From contig DATKAN010000027.1 in the NCBI GenBank assembly GCA_035498035.1, positions 5,001 to 42,110 on the forward strand: a stretch of 37,110 bases of DNA, given 5' to 3'. Made by a program: the position numbers and the translations under genes. Below, piece after piece: positions 26,590 through 37,110 of the stretch. The notes beneath the pieces were generated by a model that saw nothing but the letters and a program-made list of their open reading frames with translations, did no database searches and was not told the origin of the DNA. Positions within the stretch are counted from its first letter, which is position 1; each line of letters starts with the position of its first letter. The stretch comes from Nitrospiria bacterium (lineage in GTDB: Bacteria; Nitrospirota; Nitrospiria; JACQBZ01).

Positions 26590-28407
26590 ATGTGCCGGAT
26601 GGCCGGATATTGGGATCATCATTATAAAGGTCAATACGAAATGGCCGAGACCGTCATCCGCATGAGGGATACCTTGACTCACGGCGGACCCGATGATGCC
26701 GGTCACTGGACCGATCCGGATCGAGGGTTGGCGTTCGGGCACCGCCGCTTGTCCATCATCGATCTTTCGGCCTCGGGCCACCAGCCCATGCGCTTCCGCG
26801 AGACGGTTCTCGTCTATAACGGCGAGGTGTACAACTATTCCGAGATTCGGGCGGACCTCGAGCGGGCGGGATACGTCTTCGATTCCGGCTCCGACACCGA
26901 GGTGATTCTCAAAGCCTATGATCGCTGGGGGACGGATTGTCTTCAGCGGTTCAGGGGCATGTGGGCCTTTGCGCTCTGGGACGGCCGGACGGAGTCGTTG
27001 CTCCTGTGCCGCGACCGGGTCGGCGTCAAACCGCTGTACTGGTATTATAAGGACGGCCTCCTGATTTTTGGGTCCGAGCTGAAGGCGTTTCACAAACATC
27101 CCGGTTTCTCGAAAGACCTCGACCGTCGCGCCGCCCAACTCTATTTCCAGTACGGTTATATCCCGGCGCCGCACGCGATTTTCCGGAATGTCCGGAAGGT
27201 CCGGCCCGGCCATTTCCTGACGGCGGACCGGACCGGCGCGATTCGGGAAACGGCCTACTGGAACGTCCGGGAGAGCTATGTCCGGGGATTTTCGGAGGAG
27301 GGGCGTCGCCGCTGGAATCGGAAAACGGAGAAAGAGATCGAGGATGAGCTGGAGAAGGAGCTGATCGAATCCTTCAAACTTCGCCTGGTTTCGGATGTAC
27401 CGGTCGGTATATTCCTGAGCGGTGGAATCGACAGCTCGGCCGTGGCGGCCCTGCTTCAGGCCCAGTCGGGACAGCGACTCAAGACCTTTACGATAGGCTT
27501 TTACGGAAAAAAGAGCTATGACGAGGCCCCGTGGGCCGGAAAAATCGCCGCTCATCTCGGAACCGACCATGTCGAGCATTATTTCGAGCCGAAGGAAGTG
27601 GCCGGGATCCTGGAAAAGGTGCCCCTTCTCTATGACGAACCCTTCGGGGACAGCTCGGCCCTGCCGACGTCTCTGGTCGCGACCGTGGCCCGACGCCACG
27701 TGAAGGTGGCCTTGTCGGCCGACGGCGGGGACGAACTCTTTCAGGGCTACCGTTTCTATCGTCAGGCCTTTCCGGCCTGGACGCATCCCCTGATCCGCTG
27801 GCTATCCGGCGTCCGCTCGAAACGGATCGTACTGGGGCCGTTCGAAAAGAAATTCCAAGCCGAGCGGGTAACCGCCTTTTATCCTTCCCGTCTTCGCCGG
27901 GCGCTCGCCCTCCTCCGGGAGGTGGATTTCCGGGACGGCTGGGACGTTCCGAGCGGGTTGATGTACTGTGATTTCATCGGCTATTTGCCGGACGATATTT
28001 TGGTCAAAGTGGACCGGGCCACGATGGGCGTCGCGTTGGAAGGCCGGGAGCCTTTTCTTGACCATCGCTTGGTCGAGTACGTGACCCAGATGCCGGTCGA
28101 GTACAAATTTCGGAACGGTGTGGCGAAATATCTCCTGAAAAAGATCCTGTACCGCTATATCCCCGAGCCGCTTCTGCGGCGGCCCAAACACGGTTTCAGC
28201 ATCCCGCTGGATGATCCGGAATACCGCGGGAAGCTCGAGGCCTTGTTCGATCATTACCTGTCCGAGGAACGGCTGAGGGGAACCGATCTGATCGACACCG
28301 GACTCGTCCGAGGGCTTTTAGATCGGTGGAAGGCGGGACGCATCCGCCATGACCGCTTGTGGTACATCCTGTGTTTTCAGATCTGGGCCGATGCGTATCT
28401 GTTATAG
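26590..28407 (+). CDS. asnB: Asparagine synthase-like glutamine amidotransferase
   Basis: The 605-residue protein has a class II glutaminase domain (1-200) and a synthetase domain (about 230-600). Cys2 is the nucleophile. LSIIDLSASGHQPM, YNGEVYNYSEIR, GSDTEVILKAY, GVKPLYW and the PP-loop SGGIDSS (277-283) are all present, as is ALSADGGDELFQGY. The N-terminus is MCRMAG, not the usual MCGIAG. Members of this group in glycan clusters are often thought to amidate sugars or carboxylates, but true asparagine synthesis is possible. It is separated by 12 bases from the preceding GT4, with GAAGGAAA upstream. Its stop TAG opens copy 3 of the palindromic element. Confidence 0.92.
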   Translation: MCRMAGYWDHHYKGQYEMAETVIRMRDTLTHGGPDDAGHWTDPDRGLAFGHRRLSIIDLSASGHQPMRFRETVLVYNGEVYNYSEIRADLERAGYVFDSGSDTEVILKAYDRWGTDCLQRFRGMWAFALWDGRTESLLLCRDRVGVKPLYWYYKDGLLIFGSELKAFHKHPGFSKDLDRRAAQLYFQYGYIPAPHAIFRNVRKVRPGHFLTADRTGAIRETAYWNVRESYVRGFSEEGRRRWNRKTEKEIEDELEKELIESFKLRLVSDVPVGIFLSGGIDSSAVAALLQAQSGQRLKTFTIGFYGKKSYDEAPWAGKIAAHLGTDHVEHYFEPKEVAGILEKVPLLYDEPFGDSSALPTSLVATVARRHVKVALSADGGDELFQGYRFYRQAFPAWTHPLIRWLSGVRSKRIVLGPFEKKFQAERVTAFYPSRLRRALALLREVDFRDGWDVPSGLMYCDFIGYLPDDILVKVDRATMGVALEGREPFLDHRLVEYVTQMPVEYKFRNGVAKYLLKKILYRYIPEPLLRRPKHGFSIPLDDPEYRGKLEALFDHYLSEERLRGTDLIDTGLVRGLLDRWKAGRIRHDRLWYILCFQIWADAYLL

Positions 28408-28486
28408 GGGCTTGCGTCGCCCCCTCCATCCACCTAAGGTGGAATGGAGCCTCCCCCTCACGCTCGCCGTGCTCGCTGGGGGGATT
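28405..28486 (+). repeat. Palindromic element (copy 3) plus dispersed repeat copy A
   Basis: The asnB stop TAG opens TAGGGGC, and GGGGC can pair with the following GCCCC. A second palindrome, CCATCCACC with GGTGGAATGG, follows around 28426-28447. The 37 bases at 28444-28480 match 36600-36636 at 33 positions. Together these fill the 129-base gap before the FemAB-like gene. Confidence 0.75.
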
Positions 28487-28536
28487 TGCGAATCCGACGG
28501 TTCCAACAAATCCTGAATATTTCGGAAGGGGAGAGA

Positions 28537-29682
28537 TTGGTTGAGTTTGAGTTGATCGAAGAGGATAAACCGTTCCGGGATCTGGCACCCGGATGGATCG
28601 ATCTGCACCGCGCCGCGGTCCATCCCACGCCGTTCATGAGCTGGGAATGGGCGTCGAGCTGGTGGGACTTCTTCGGCTCCGGAAAACTCCACGTCGTTGC
28701 ATTCCGACGGGGCGGGCGCCTTTCGGGACTCGCTCCGCTCTACCGCTGCGACGGCCCGTGGGGGATGTCGACGCTACGGCAGATCGGGGCGGGACAATCC
28801 GATTATCTGGATTTTCTCGTCGGACCCGAAGCCGGCGAAAAGGGGTACGGCGATCTGGTTCTTTCCGTTCTCGCCTCGGGCGACGCCGACCTGGTTTGGC
28901 TGGAACAGGTCCCGCCCGACCGCTTGGCGACCCTTCGGGACCGGGGCCGCTCGACCGGATCGTATTTCCAGGTGAAAGAGCGGGGGCATTGCTACATCGC
29001 CGAACTTCCGTCGCGGTGGGAGGAGTATCTTTCCGGCCTGGGGAGCAACGAGCGGTATAACATCGGCCGCAGGAGCCGCACCTTGGAAAAGCAACACGGC
29101 GTTGTGTTCCATCGCTACGATAAACCGGGAGAGGACCTGGATCGAAAAATGGACGATTTCTTCGATCTGATGATCCGTCGGCTGACGATGCGCGGACGGG
29201 TCCTGGCCGCGGACGAGACGGTCTCGCGGGGCTTCCACAAAAGCATCGCACAGCGCTTCGCCGCGCAGGGGTGGCTCAATCTCAGTACGCTGGAGAAGGA
29301 CGGCCGGATGATCGCCGGCCTGCTTTCGTTTGAATACGGCGGAACGCTTTTCTACTATCATTCCGGCTTCGATCCGGCCTGGGCCAAATTCAGCGTCGGC
29401 ATGGTTCTGATGGCCAAATGCATCGAGGATGGAATCGGTCGCGGTCTTCGTCAATTCGATTTCATGCGGGGTCGCGCCGCTTATAAGATGAAGTGGAAGG
29501 TGAAAGAGCGAAGCTTCTTTCGCGTCGTCATCGCCCGGTCGATGGGCGGCTATCTTAAGTTCCTCGGCCACGGAGTGGCCTCTCGCCTTCAAAAGAATAT
29601 CGGCCGCTGGGCCGGCGCCCGGGGCGGGGGCCGCGACCGGTCGGAAGCGGTCCCTTCGGCCGTAAGGGGGCCGCGCATATGA
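28537..29682 (+). CDS. FemAB/GNAT-like N-acyltransferase (BioF2-type)
   Basis: The 381-residue protein has the double-GNAT arrangement of the FemAB/CelD (PF13480-type) family. PFMSWEWASSWWDFFG opens the first half, LAPLYRC and YLDFLVGP follow, and the second half carries RYNIGRRSRTLEKQHGVVFH, GWLNLSTLEKDGRMIAGLLS, YYHSGFDPAWAKFSVGMVLM and FDFMRGRAAYKMKWKV. These proteins transfer an acyl or aminoacyl group, often to an amino sugar in extracellular glycans. TTG 28537 is my choice because AAGGGGAG lies just upstream and an upstream ATG (28444) would begin inside the dispersed repeat. The stop overlaps the FkbM gene (ATGA). Confidence 0.82.
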   Translation: MVEFELIEEDKPFRDLAPGWIDLHRAAVHPTPFMSWEWASSWWDFFGSGKLHVVAFRRGGRLSGLAPLYRCDGPWGMSTLRQIGAGQSDYLDFLVGPEAGEKGYGDLVLSVLASGDADLVWLEQVPPDRLATLRDRGRSTGSYFQVKERGHCYIAELPSRWEEYLSGLGSNERYNIGRRSRTLEKQHGVVFHRYDKPGEDLDRKMDDFFDLMIRRLTMRGRVLAADETVSRGFHKSIAQRFAAQGWLNLSTLEKDGRMIAGLLSFEYGGTLFYYHSGFDPAWAKFSVGMVLMAKCIEDGIGRGLRQFDFMRGRAAYKMKWKVKERSFFRVVIARSMGGYLKFLGHGVASRLQKNIGRWAGARGGGRDRSEAVPSAVRGPRI

Positions 29683-36065: not shown

Positions 36066-36083
36066 CGATCATGAGGATGATCG
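36066..36083. other. Short perfect inverted repeat between convergent genes
   Basis: CGATCAT (36066-36072) and ATGATCG (36077-36083) pair perfectly around a GAGG loop at the 3' end of the minus-strand kinase-like gene. There is no T tract, so its value as a terminator is doubtful. Confidence 0.3.
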
Positions 36084-37037
36084 ATATGAGGCGGGAGGCG
36101 TTCCGGGAAAAACGAGGTTGAGGGTTTCGGGAACGATCGTCAACCGGGCCGGGGCGGTGCCGACGGCCTCGCCGTCGGCCTGAAGCGGGACCGGACTTTC
36201 GATTTCGACCGACCTTCCGTGGTGGAATTCCACGTCCTTCATCCGATGGTGCAGTCCCGCGATCACGCCCAGCGTGTATTTCATATAGGTCAGGGGACCC
36301 CGTCCTTTAAAAAGGCAGAGGACCAGCTCCGGCCGGTCCAGTCGGACATGGGGCACGATGGCAAAGGGACCGCCGTAACAACGGGCCTTGGCGGTGATTC
36401 CCGACGTGCCCTTCACCTCACGCCCATCGACGCGGAACGTGACGGTGGAATAGTCGTAGCGGAACAATTGGATGATTCCGGCCGCCATGTAGGCCAACAT
36501 GCCCAGTTTCTTCGGGCCGGGCGGAACGCTCCGGACGATGCTCGCGTCGAATCCCGCGCCGACCATGAGAATGAAAAGGCGCTGGTTTGGCGAAGCCGGA
36601 TGGAGCCTCCCCCTCCCGCTCGCGTTGCTCGCCGGGCCGATCTGTCCCAAATAAATCGGACGGACCACGCCGTTACGGATCGCCGTGGCGGCCTTGATCG
36701 GGTTTGTCGGCAGTCCCACTTCACGAATGAGGCTGTTCCCGGTTCCCATCGGGAGGATTCCGAGCGGAACGGCGGAGCCCCGCATCCCGTTGATTACCTC
36801 GTGATAGGTTCCGTCCCCGCCGGCGGCCAGGATCAGATCGTGCGCGCCGGAGGACAACATTCTCGCCAGACGTTCACCGTCGCCGGCGCGGCCGGTCGGG
36901 TGGACGGTGAGATCGGGAAAGAGTGTCTTCAGATGGTCGATCAGCTGCCGCGACTTCCTTCGCCTCCATACCGGACCGGCAACCGGGTTCAAAATCAGTG
37001 TCGGCTTTTTTGCCATCATCGTAGAGGCTCGCTCCAT
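36069..37037 (-). CDS. Diacylglycerol/lipid kinase family protein with repeat-derived insertion
   Basis: The 322-residue protein belongs to the DAGK-catalytic (YegS/DgkB-like) family of ATP-dependent lipid kinases. TLILNPVAGP opens the domain, LILAAGGDGTYHEVINGM holds the GGDGT nucleotide site, and PLGILPMGTGNSLIREVG and LMVGAGFDASIV follow. The C-terminal part ends with VPLQADGEAVG, normal for the family. About 17 residues near 131-148 (ASNASGRGRLHPASP) come from a dispersed DNA repeat and are not part of the usual fold. The start is unclear: ATG 37037, 37019 or 37016; the family start (KKPTLILNP) fits any of them. Substrate may be diacylglycerol or another lipid alcohol. Confidence 0.85.
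   Translation of the reverse strand: MERASTMMAKKPTLILNPVAGPVWRRRKSRQLIDHLKTLFPDLTVHPTGRAGDGERLARMLSSGAHDLILAAGGDGTYHEVINGMRGSAVPLGILPMGTGNSLIREVGLPTNPIKAATAIRNGVVRPIYLGQIGPASNASGRGRLHPASPNQRLFILMVGAGFDASIVRSVPPGPKKLGMLAYMAAGIIQLFRYDYSTVTFRVDGREVKGTSGITAKARCYGGPFAIVPHVRLDRPELVLCLFKGRGPLTYMKYTLGVIAGLHHRMKDVEFHHGRSVEIESPVPLQADGEAVGTAPARLTIVPETLNLVFPGTPPASYRSSS
36600..36636. repeat. Dispersed GC-rich repeat, copy B (inside a gene)
   Basis: These 37 bases match 28444-28480 at 33 positions. Copy A lies in an intergenic gap; copy B lies inside the lipid-kinase gene and keeps its frame open. Both copies contain two CGCTCGC/TGCTCGC units after CTCCCCCTC. Confidence 0.85.
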
Positions 37038-37110
37038 ATCAACGAGCGGCCATCTTAGCACAAGAAAACGGGTTTGAGAAGCGGGCCGCCCCGGTCTCTC
37101 CGGCTTGCTA

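Follow-up and report, generated by a model that had tools for sequence, protein, structure and literature searches.

A dispersed, structured repeat of Nitrospiria inserted in frame in a lipid-kinase gene and other conserved genes

A lipid-kinase gene in the window (the whole stretch of 37,110 nucleotides analyzed, from genome G000) carries an in-frame remnant of a dispersed repeat. This repeat is polymorphic between close relatives, is mostly intergenic, and forms several in-frame insertions in conserved genes. With a probability of about 0.8, such copies are class-specific, non-autonomous, structured mobile repeats resembling the RPEs of Rickettsia, and the kinase insert is an eroded copy. 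Mobility had been proposed from the sequence alone; occupied and empty sites and copy differences between relatives support it, while transposition is inferred from these rather than observed.

Copies in the window and alleles of the kinase site

Two 37-base stretches of the window, 36600-36636 and 28444-28480, had been described as near-identical, and direct reading of the sequence confirmed 33 of 37 identical positions. Both read ATGGAGCCTCCCCCTC[C/A]CGCTCGC.., and the core pattern has two matches in the window against 0.02 expected from shuffles. The match is correct, but its size is not that of the repeat, which is about 79–83 bp, so the 37 bases are only the core. One copy does lie in the kinase gene and the other between genes, with the corrections that the minus strand encodes the gene and that the intergenic copy is longer (Table 1). 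Genes were called from ORFs, hexamer coding score, homology, and Pfam/NCBIfam matches rather than from curated annotation. The best NCBIfam match of the kinase is TIGR00147, with a score slightly under its cut-off. Translation of the kinase probably begins at an internal ATG, around residue 15-16.

Table 1. Positions of the repeat copies and of the kinase gene in the window
Feature	Position	Strand	Description and basis
In-frame insertion in lipid-kinase gene	36588..36638	-	51 bp, kinase residues 142-158 (GPASNASGRGRLHPASP); repeat remnant, hairpin-1 end lost; occupied/empty comparison with G001-G006 orthologues; profile match positions 26-75 of 79
Repeat-homologous stretch	36587..36636	+	Model positions 26-75, model '+' strand, antisense to kinase gene; nhmmer profile match; R1 covariance match of the region, G000:C27:41534-41640
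YegS/Rv2252/BmrU (DgkB-type) lipid kinase carrying the insertion	36069..37061	-	Pfam DAGK_cat and YegS_C; PDB DgkB/BmrU; orthologue alignment
Intergenic repeat, near-complete copy	28404..28484	+	R1 E=3e-16, G000:C27:33404-33484

The upstream ORF, 26590-28407, ends at a TAG (28405-28407) contributed by the intergenic copy. The genes flanking this copy are on the plus strand, so it has the rarer orientation, and its fold z is -2.5 on the plus and -3.5 on the minus strand. At 28444-28540, an ATG inside the element begins an ORF (28444-29682) that shares the frame of the downstream gene; the gene itself probably starts at the TTG near 28537, after GGGGAGAGA.

The kinase insertion was predicted to add about 17 residues, and its 51 bp are indeed 17 codons of an eroded copy. 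Orthologue alignment showed that the peptide is missing in G001, G003, G004, G005, and one of two alleles of G006 (C171), all of which have the plain turn LG(Q/R)xxxR(L/F)FILMVG. A short turn is usual in the family, as had been assumed, since most distant homologues and the PDB structure of DgkB (2qv7) are without the segment. The sister genome G002, a congener of G000, holds a complete element at this site, in frame, with a gain of 81 bp (LGQIDPASTASERGRLHPALPVEGATRAPTIDHRLF); the copy is 79 bp long (R1 E=1.1e-18, G002:C66:10153-10231). In G000 the site has gained 51 bp and the hairpin-1 part is absent, and the G006 allele on C112 retains an 18-bp repeat remnant (+18 bp). All three lengths are multiples of 3. 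The kinase of G000 is 87% identical to that of G002 and about 80% identical to the rest, which fits a single insertion ahead of the split between G000 and G002. The AlphaFold model (12 sequences, mean pLDDT 84) gives residues 146-158 a confidence below 50, in a loop between strands 132-143 and 161-169. The insert is a short, probably floppy peptide.

The two G006 alleles, C112 (L046) and C171 (L037), are 88.6% identical within one MAG, one with the remnant and the other empty. This pair was read as mixed strains or a second lineage, and accounting for the remnant would take either gene exchange, another insertion, or an exact loss. An 18-bp remnant beside so similar an empty allele counts against the mobile-repeat reading.

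A rival explanation is that the kinase has an ordinary loop here, of family-specific and variable length, whose likeness to the repeat comes from chance or composition. This turn does differ among DgkB-type kinases, and in two class-level homologues, L038 and L040, it holds short insertions unrelated to the repeat. However, the complete copy at the exact site in G002 refutes this explanation, and the five empty alleles and the low chance expectation for the core also oppose it, which leaves it hardly any probability. An ancient loop, which would have been expected to persist in orthologues, is ruled out by the empty orthologues together with the full copy in G002. It is similarly very improbable that the repeats were misjoined during metagenome assembly. 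The family genomes appear to be MAGs and G006 holds two kinase fragments, but typical sequencing reads are longer than an 80-bp repeat, and the flanks are two halves of one gene, joined in frame at common sites in several separate MAGs.

Distribution and structure of the repeat

The possibility that the genome held no further copies was dismissed by a genome-wide search. The core has 44 matches at <=3 mismatches in the 2.67-Mb genome of G000 and none with the reversed-pattern control, and a covariance model built from the copies detects 88 at E<=0.001. All seven genomes of the family are positive by this model (88, 33, 74, 53, 18, 15, and 20 copies); public relatives of the family are groundwater 'Nitrospirae' MAGs. 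Among other families of the class, at least 40 copies were found in G009, 30 in G010, 19 in G015, 18 in G012, and 14 in G019, and one to a few in the remaining positive genomes. Presence across the class is patchy, with 87 of 117 genomes lacking copies. Of 246 genomes drawn from across the phylum, 12 contained the 22-base motif (<=2 mismatches), only one of them outside the class. Viral contigs did not contain the exact 22-base motif, and plasmids and phages did not contain the repeat consensus.

The non-redundant set comprises 200 copies, 189 of them near full length. About 15 of the 200 lie within genes; the intragenic share, estimated from the best-scoring copies, is about 7%. At a sampled intergenic site, the repeat was present in one genome and missing from another. 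Length differences between occupied and empty sites between genes were 73, 79, 80, 81, and 82 bp; all occupied/empty comparisons are between MAGs of different species, mostly uncultured organisms.

The unit of about 79–83 bp has the consensus TTRTAGGGGCTYGCGTCGCCCCCTCCACCGGCNAAGCCGGATGGAGCCTCCCCCTCTCGCTCGCNTTGCTCGCTGGGTAGATC (alignment of 28 copies), with conservation beginning at about position -3 and fading past GCTGGGTAGATC. Each unit has three hairpins: TAGGGGC..GTCGCCCC (hairpin 1), CTCCACCGGC..GCCGGATGGAG (hairpin 2), and GCTCGC..GCTCGC (hairpin 3). Hairpin 2 covaries, with five pairs changed on both sides. The covariation score of the whole structure is 0.115, a value reached in 0 of 500 shuffles, compared with 0.056 after shuffling, and slid controls stay at or below 0.027. 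A 2x2 mismatch is usual in hairpin 3; on the minus strand it reads G.A/A.G (tandem G.A), and in 10 copies Watson-Crick pairs replace it. Folding of the copies, proposed earlier as a check, showed that the transcript strand is the more stable in 169 of 170 (mean -36.1 vs -31.3 kcal/mol). A search of Rfam 15 with the repeat gave no match above the gathering score.

The end modules, TAGGGGCTYGCGTCGCC and CGCTCGC..GCTCGCTGGGT, also bound longer units of 95–200 bp with different middles. At least three different middles occur in these longer units (L015 1556-1710, L131, L117, L111, L118, L098, L119, L139, and others), one of which bears a GACTCGACTGAGCTCGTCGAAGTC motif. Because middles exchange while both ends stay, the conserved ends may be what a mobilizing machinery, or an RNA-binding partner, recognizes. 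The ends are not inverted copies of each other, so there is no terminal inverted repeat (TIR). The junctions of the occupied/empty site comparison showed no clear target-site duplication (TSD), although short ones could be missed because the empty-site flanks are only about 70–90% identical.

Orientation and insertions into genes

Most copies lie between genes and in a preferred orientation. Of 151 copies with clear coding flanks, 105 lie between co-directional genes antisense to the model strand and 18 between such genes in the sense orientation, so that the same repeat strand is transcribed in 105 vs 18 cases; 17 flanks are divergent and 11 convergent. The median distance from the stop codon of the upstream gene to the start of the element, measured on the transcript strand, is 19 nt (quartiles 3–35). 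Copies within genes have the orientation of the intergenic majority. In G000, one copy lies directly upstream of miaA (L014 near 1463-1540) and may provide a GTG start codon (PVEGATRAP frame) and N-terminal residues.

Ten independent in-gene sites, including the kinase, were found in the family, and DabA outside the family is the eleventh. The leucyl-tRNA synthetase (LeuRS) gene is occupied in G000 (+84 bp) and empty in G001-G005, and purN is occupied in G001, G002, and G003 (+81 bp) and empty in G000, G004, and G006. Two different sites are occupied in TamB-like proteins, one in G000 and one in G003 (TamB +81 bp). The remaining sites are a family-4 uracil-DNA glycosylase linker (G005), a CCG-domain Fe-S reductase subunit (G002, G003, and G005), an exported cytochrome/FGE protein (G000), an exported glycosidase-like protein (G004), and the PriA zinc domain (G003), the sole site on the opposite strand. 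All genic occupied/empty differences (kinase, LeuRS, PurN, and TamB) are multiples of 3, and the genes with insertions are intact ORFs. Repeated insertions have left the reading frames of these genes unbroken, and each would add a short peptide to the protein.

The Nitrospiraceae-like genomes G030, G073, G087, and G108 have their single copy in DabA, an inorganic-carbon transporter subunit, in frame and at one site. Decayed traces remain in G067 and G061, and the site is empty in G100, G070, G084, G007, and others. G023 has a 160-bp longer member, in frame, in the loop that holds the short form elsewhere. This loop, before CIDVRSEPFRRHLE, is a hotspot (short form L256 in G073, L257 in G030, L258 in G108, and L265 in G087; longer form L284 in G023). 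The short form occurs in several Nitrospiraceae-like genera with no or hardly any other copy, and G023 belongs to another family than these. In the uracil-DNA glycosylase linker where G005 holds the element, G000 has two perfect 28-bp palindromes in frame, GTAGGGGCGACGCATGCGTCGCCCCTAC and GTAGGGGCGTACGGCCGTACGCCCCTAC (L192 2107-2253, identical to L104 1254-1400). These in-frame palindromes suggest that a second, GTAG-type palindrome family also enters genes.

Ten of the 11 in-gene sites, a small sample, share the same strand and, in essence, the same frame (..ASERGRLHPASPVEGATRAP..). Under equal chances, such agreement would have a probability of about 1e-5, an estimate for which the classification was partly made by eye. 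Selection on the encoded peptide as a useful or harmless linker might by itself account for the common strand and frame, an explanation held to be possible but rather doubtful. Five of the six frames are mostly open (149, 143, 123, 122, and 114 of 189 copies), yet nearly all sites use the hydrophilic frame, and the DabA element is kept in frame in several genera nearly without other copies. Against this, the non-coding intergenic copies share the strand bias, so strand choice cannot reflect peptide selection only and must at least partly be set otherwise. The other benign frame of that strand is also open, and therefore only the choice of frame within the strand needs peptide selection. The number of sites is also small.

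An unlikely alternative is that the repeat acts chiefly in RNA regulation or processing at gene 3' ends, as an mRNA structure between cistrons maintained by selection, and that the in-gene copies are recombination accidents. The 105:18 bias, the location just past stop codons, the better folding of the transcript strand with its tandem G.A motif, and the compensatory changes in hairpin 2 all agree with an RNA role. However, copy number varies from 15 to 88 among close relatives, the sampled intergenic site is occupied or empty, and the repeat is missing from most of the class. At least 10 independent in-gene insertions are also too many for rare accidents. It can be tentatively proposed that between genes the element is an orientation-locked structured RNA directly behind stop codons and that within genes the same strand, translated in one preferred frame, serves as a disordered linker.

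Relation to known repeats and proposed origin

The suggested likeness to RPEs holds for behavior but not for membership in a known RPE or REP sequence family. In Rickettsia, RPEs are dispersed structured repeats that sit in frame within unrelated genes, often those with housekeeping roles; every RPE family has its own conserved encoded peptide, and copies occur both in genes and between them (PMC10969869; PMC3733652). Like them, the Nitrospirota repeat is dispersed and foldable, has many copies (88) and hairpins with covariation, lies in frame in several unrelated genes whose orthologues are empty, and has a conserved encoded frame (10 of 11 sites, a small sample). Unlike RPEs of about 150 bp, it is about 79–83 bp and GC-rich, has no common terminal tag (RPE-4 and RPE-6 are CGTC-ended), is strongly oriented to transcription also between genes, and is hosted by Nitrospirota instead of Rickettsiales.

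GTAG/CGTC REPs are short palindromes, mainly intergenic near gene 3' ends and associated with co-directional genes; they occur in several phyla, with some copies inside genes, including tRNA synthetase genes (Di Nocera 2013, PMC3733652). The Nitrospirota repeat is similarly mostly intergenic near gene 3' ends and may provide a TAG stop codon, but it has three hairpins per unit and flanks no RAYT. A GTAG end is not conserved, with A in 53% and G in 30% of copies at position 1. CGTC REPs have an unpaired CGTC end, an 8–9 bp stem starting with A/T pairs, and a CCA tail (PMC3733652), and the structure of the present repeat departs from this description. The terminal CGTC of RPE-4, RPE-6, and dRS3 is absent, and the CGTC that is present lies inside the unit, in the hairpin-1 loop. 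A RAYT-driven REP was ruled out, as both Y1_Tnp genes of G000 (C55) are flanked by other repeats. These RAYT-like genes (about 290 aa; L050 and L051; G000:C55 at about 34.1 and 37.0 kb) are closely similar and have GGGTCAGGTCTTGAATTATCAGTTTT flanks, and the second copy apparently lies inside an RHS/YD-repeat-like gene.

Like MITEs, the repeat is short, non-autonomous, dispersed, and presumably moved in trans, with common ends and a variable middle; unlike them, it has no recognized TIR or TSD, and no parent transposon was found. An integron attC site appears unlikely, as no attC-type GTTRRRY core was seen in the consensus. An intrinsic terminator was rejected, as the consensus has no T-run after the last hairpin on the transcript strand. 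The repeat looks like a new family of a known kind, because its behavior is RPE-like but the GTAG REP, CGTC REP, and MITE tests failed; RPE-like and REP-like behavior itself is known. The literature searched held no report of such repeats for Nitrospirota, which is not proof of absence, and 'Nitrospira' had 0 hits in PMC3733652. The orientation lock, which like the host lineage looks new, and the complete series of occupied, partial, remnant, and empty alleles are unusual.

Copies may spread through a transposase or recombinase that works in trans and targets the conserved end modules, since copies with different middles, from 79 to about 180 bp long, keep the same two ends. No linked transposase, TIR, or clear TSD was found, which counts against the mobile-repeat reading. 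A full 81-bp copy would have entered the beta-hairpin turn of the kinase in the common ancestor of G000 and G002, where it was probably tolerated because it encodes a hydrophilic, unstructured loop. The G000 copy would later have eroded by an in-frame 30-bp loss. Orientation could be set by RNA-level selection or by insertion coupled to the direction of transcription, because most copies lie just past a stop codon with one strand transcribed.

In-frame palindromic insertions are best known from Rickettsia, and a 2024 review considered a similar mechanism merely conceivable for other prokaryotes (PMC10969869). The present repeat is an independent case from a lineage that is free-living and not rickettsial. 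One site shows full, partial, remnant, and empty alleles, and at least 10 independent target genes are known, including essential ones. Together with a measurable orientation rule, this makes it testable what moves the repeats, why their frame and strand are fixed, and whether the peptides are neutral. If the proposed double role is true, an RNA-level constraint would also make the element a recurrent source of new protein segments, one of which would have been kept for genus-scale times in DabA.
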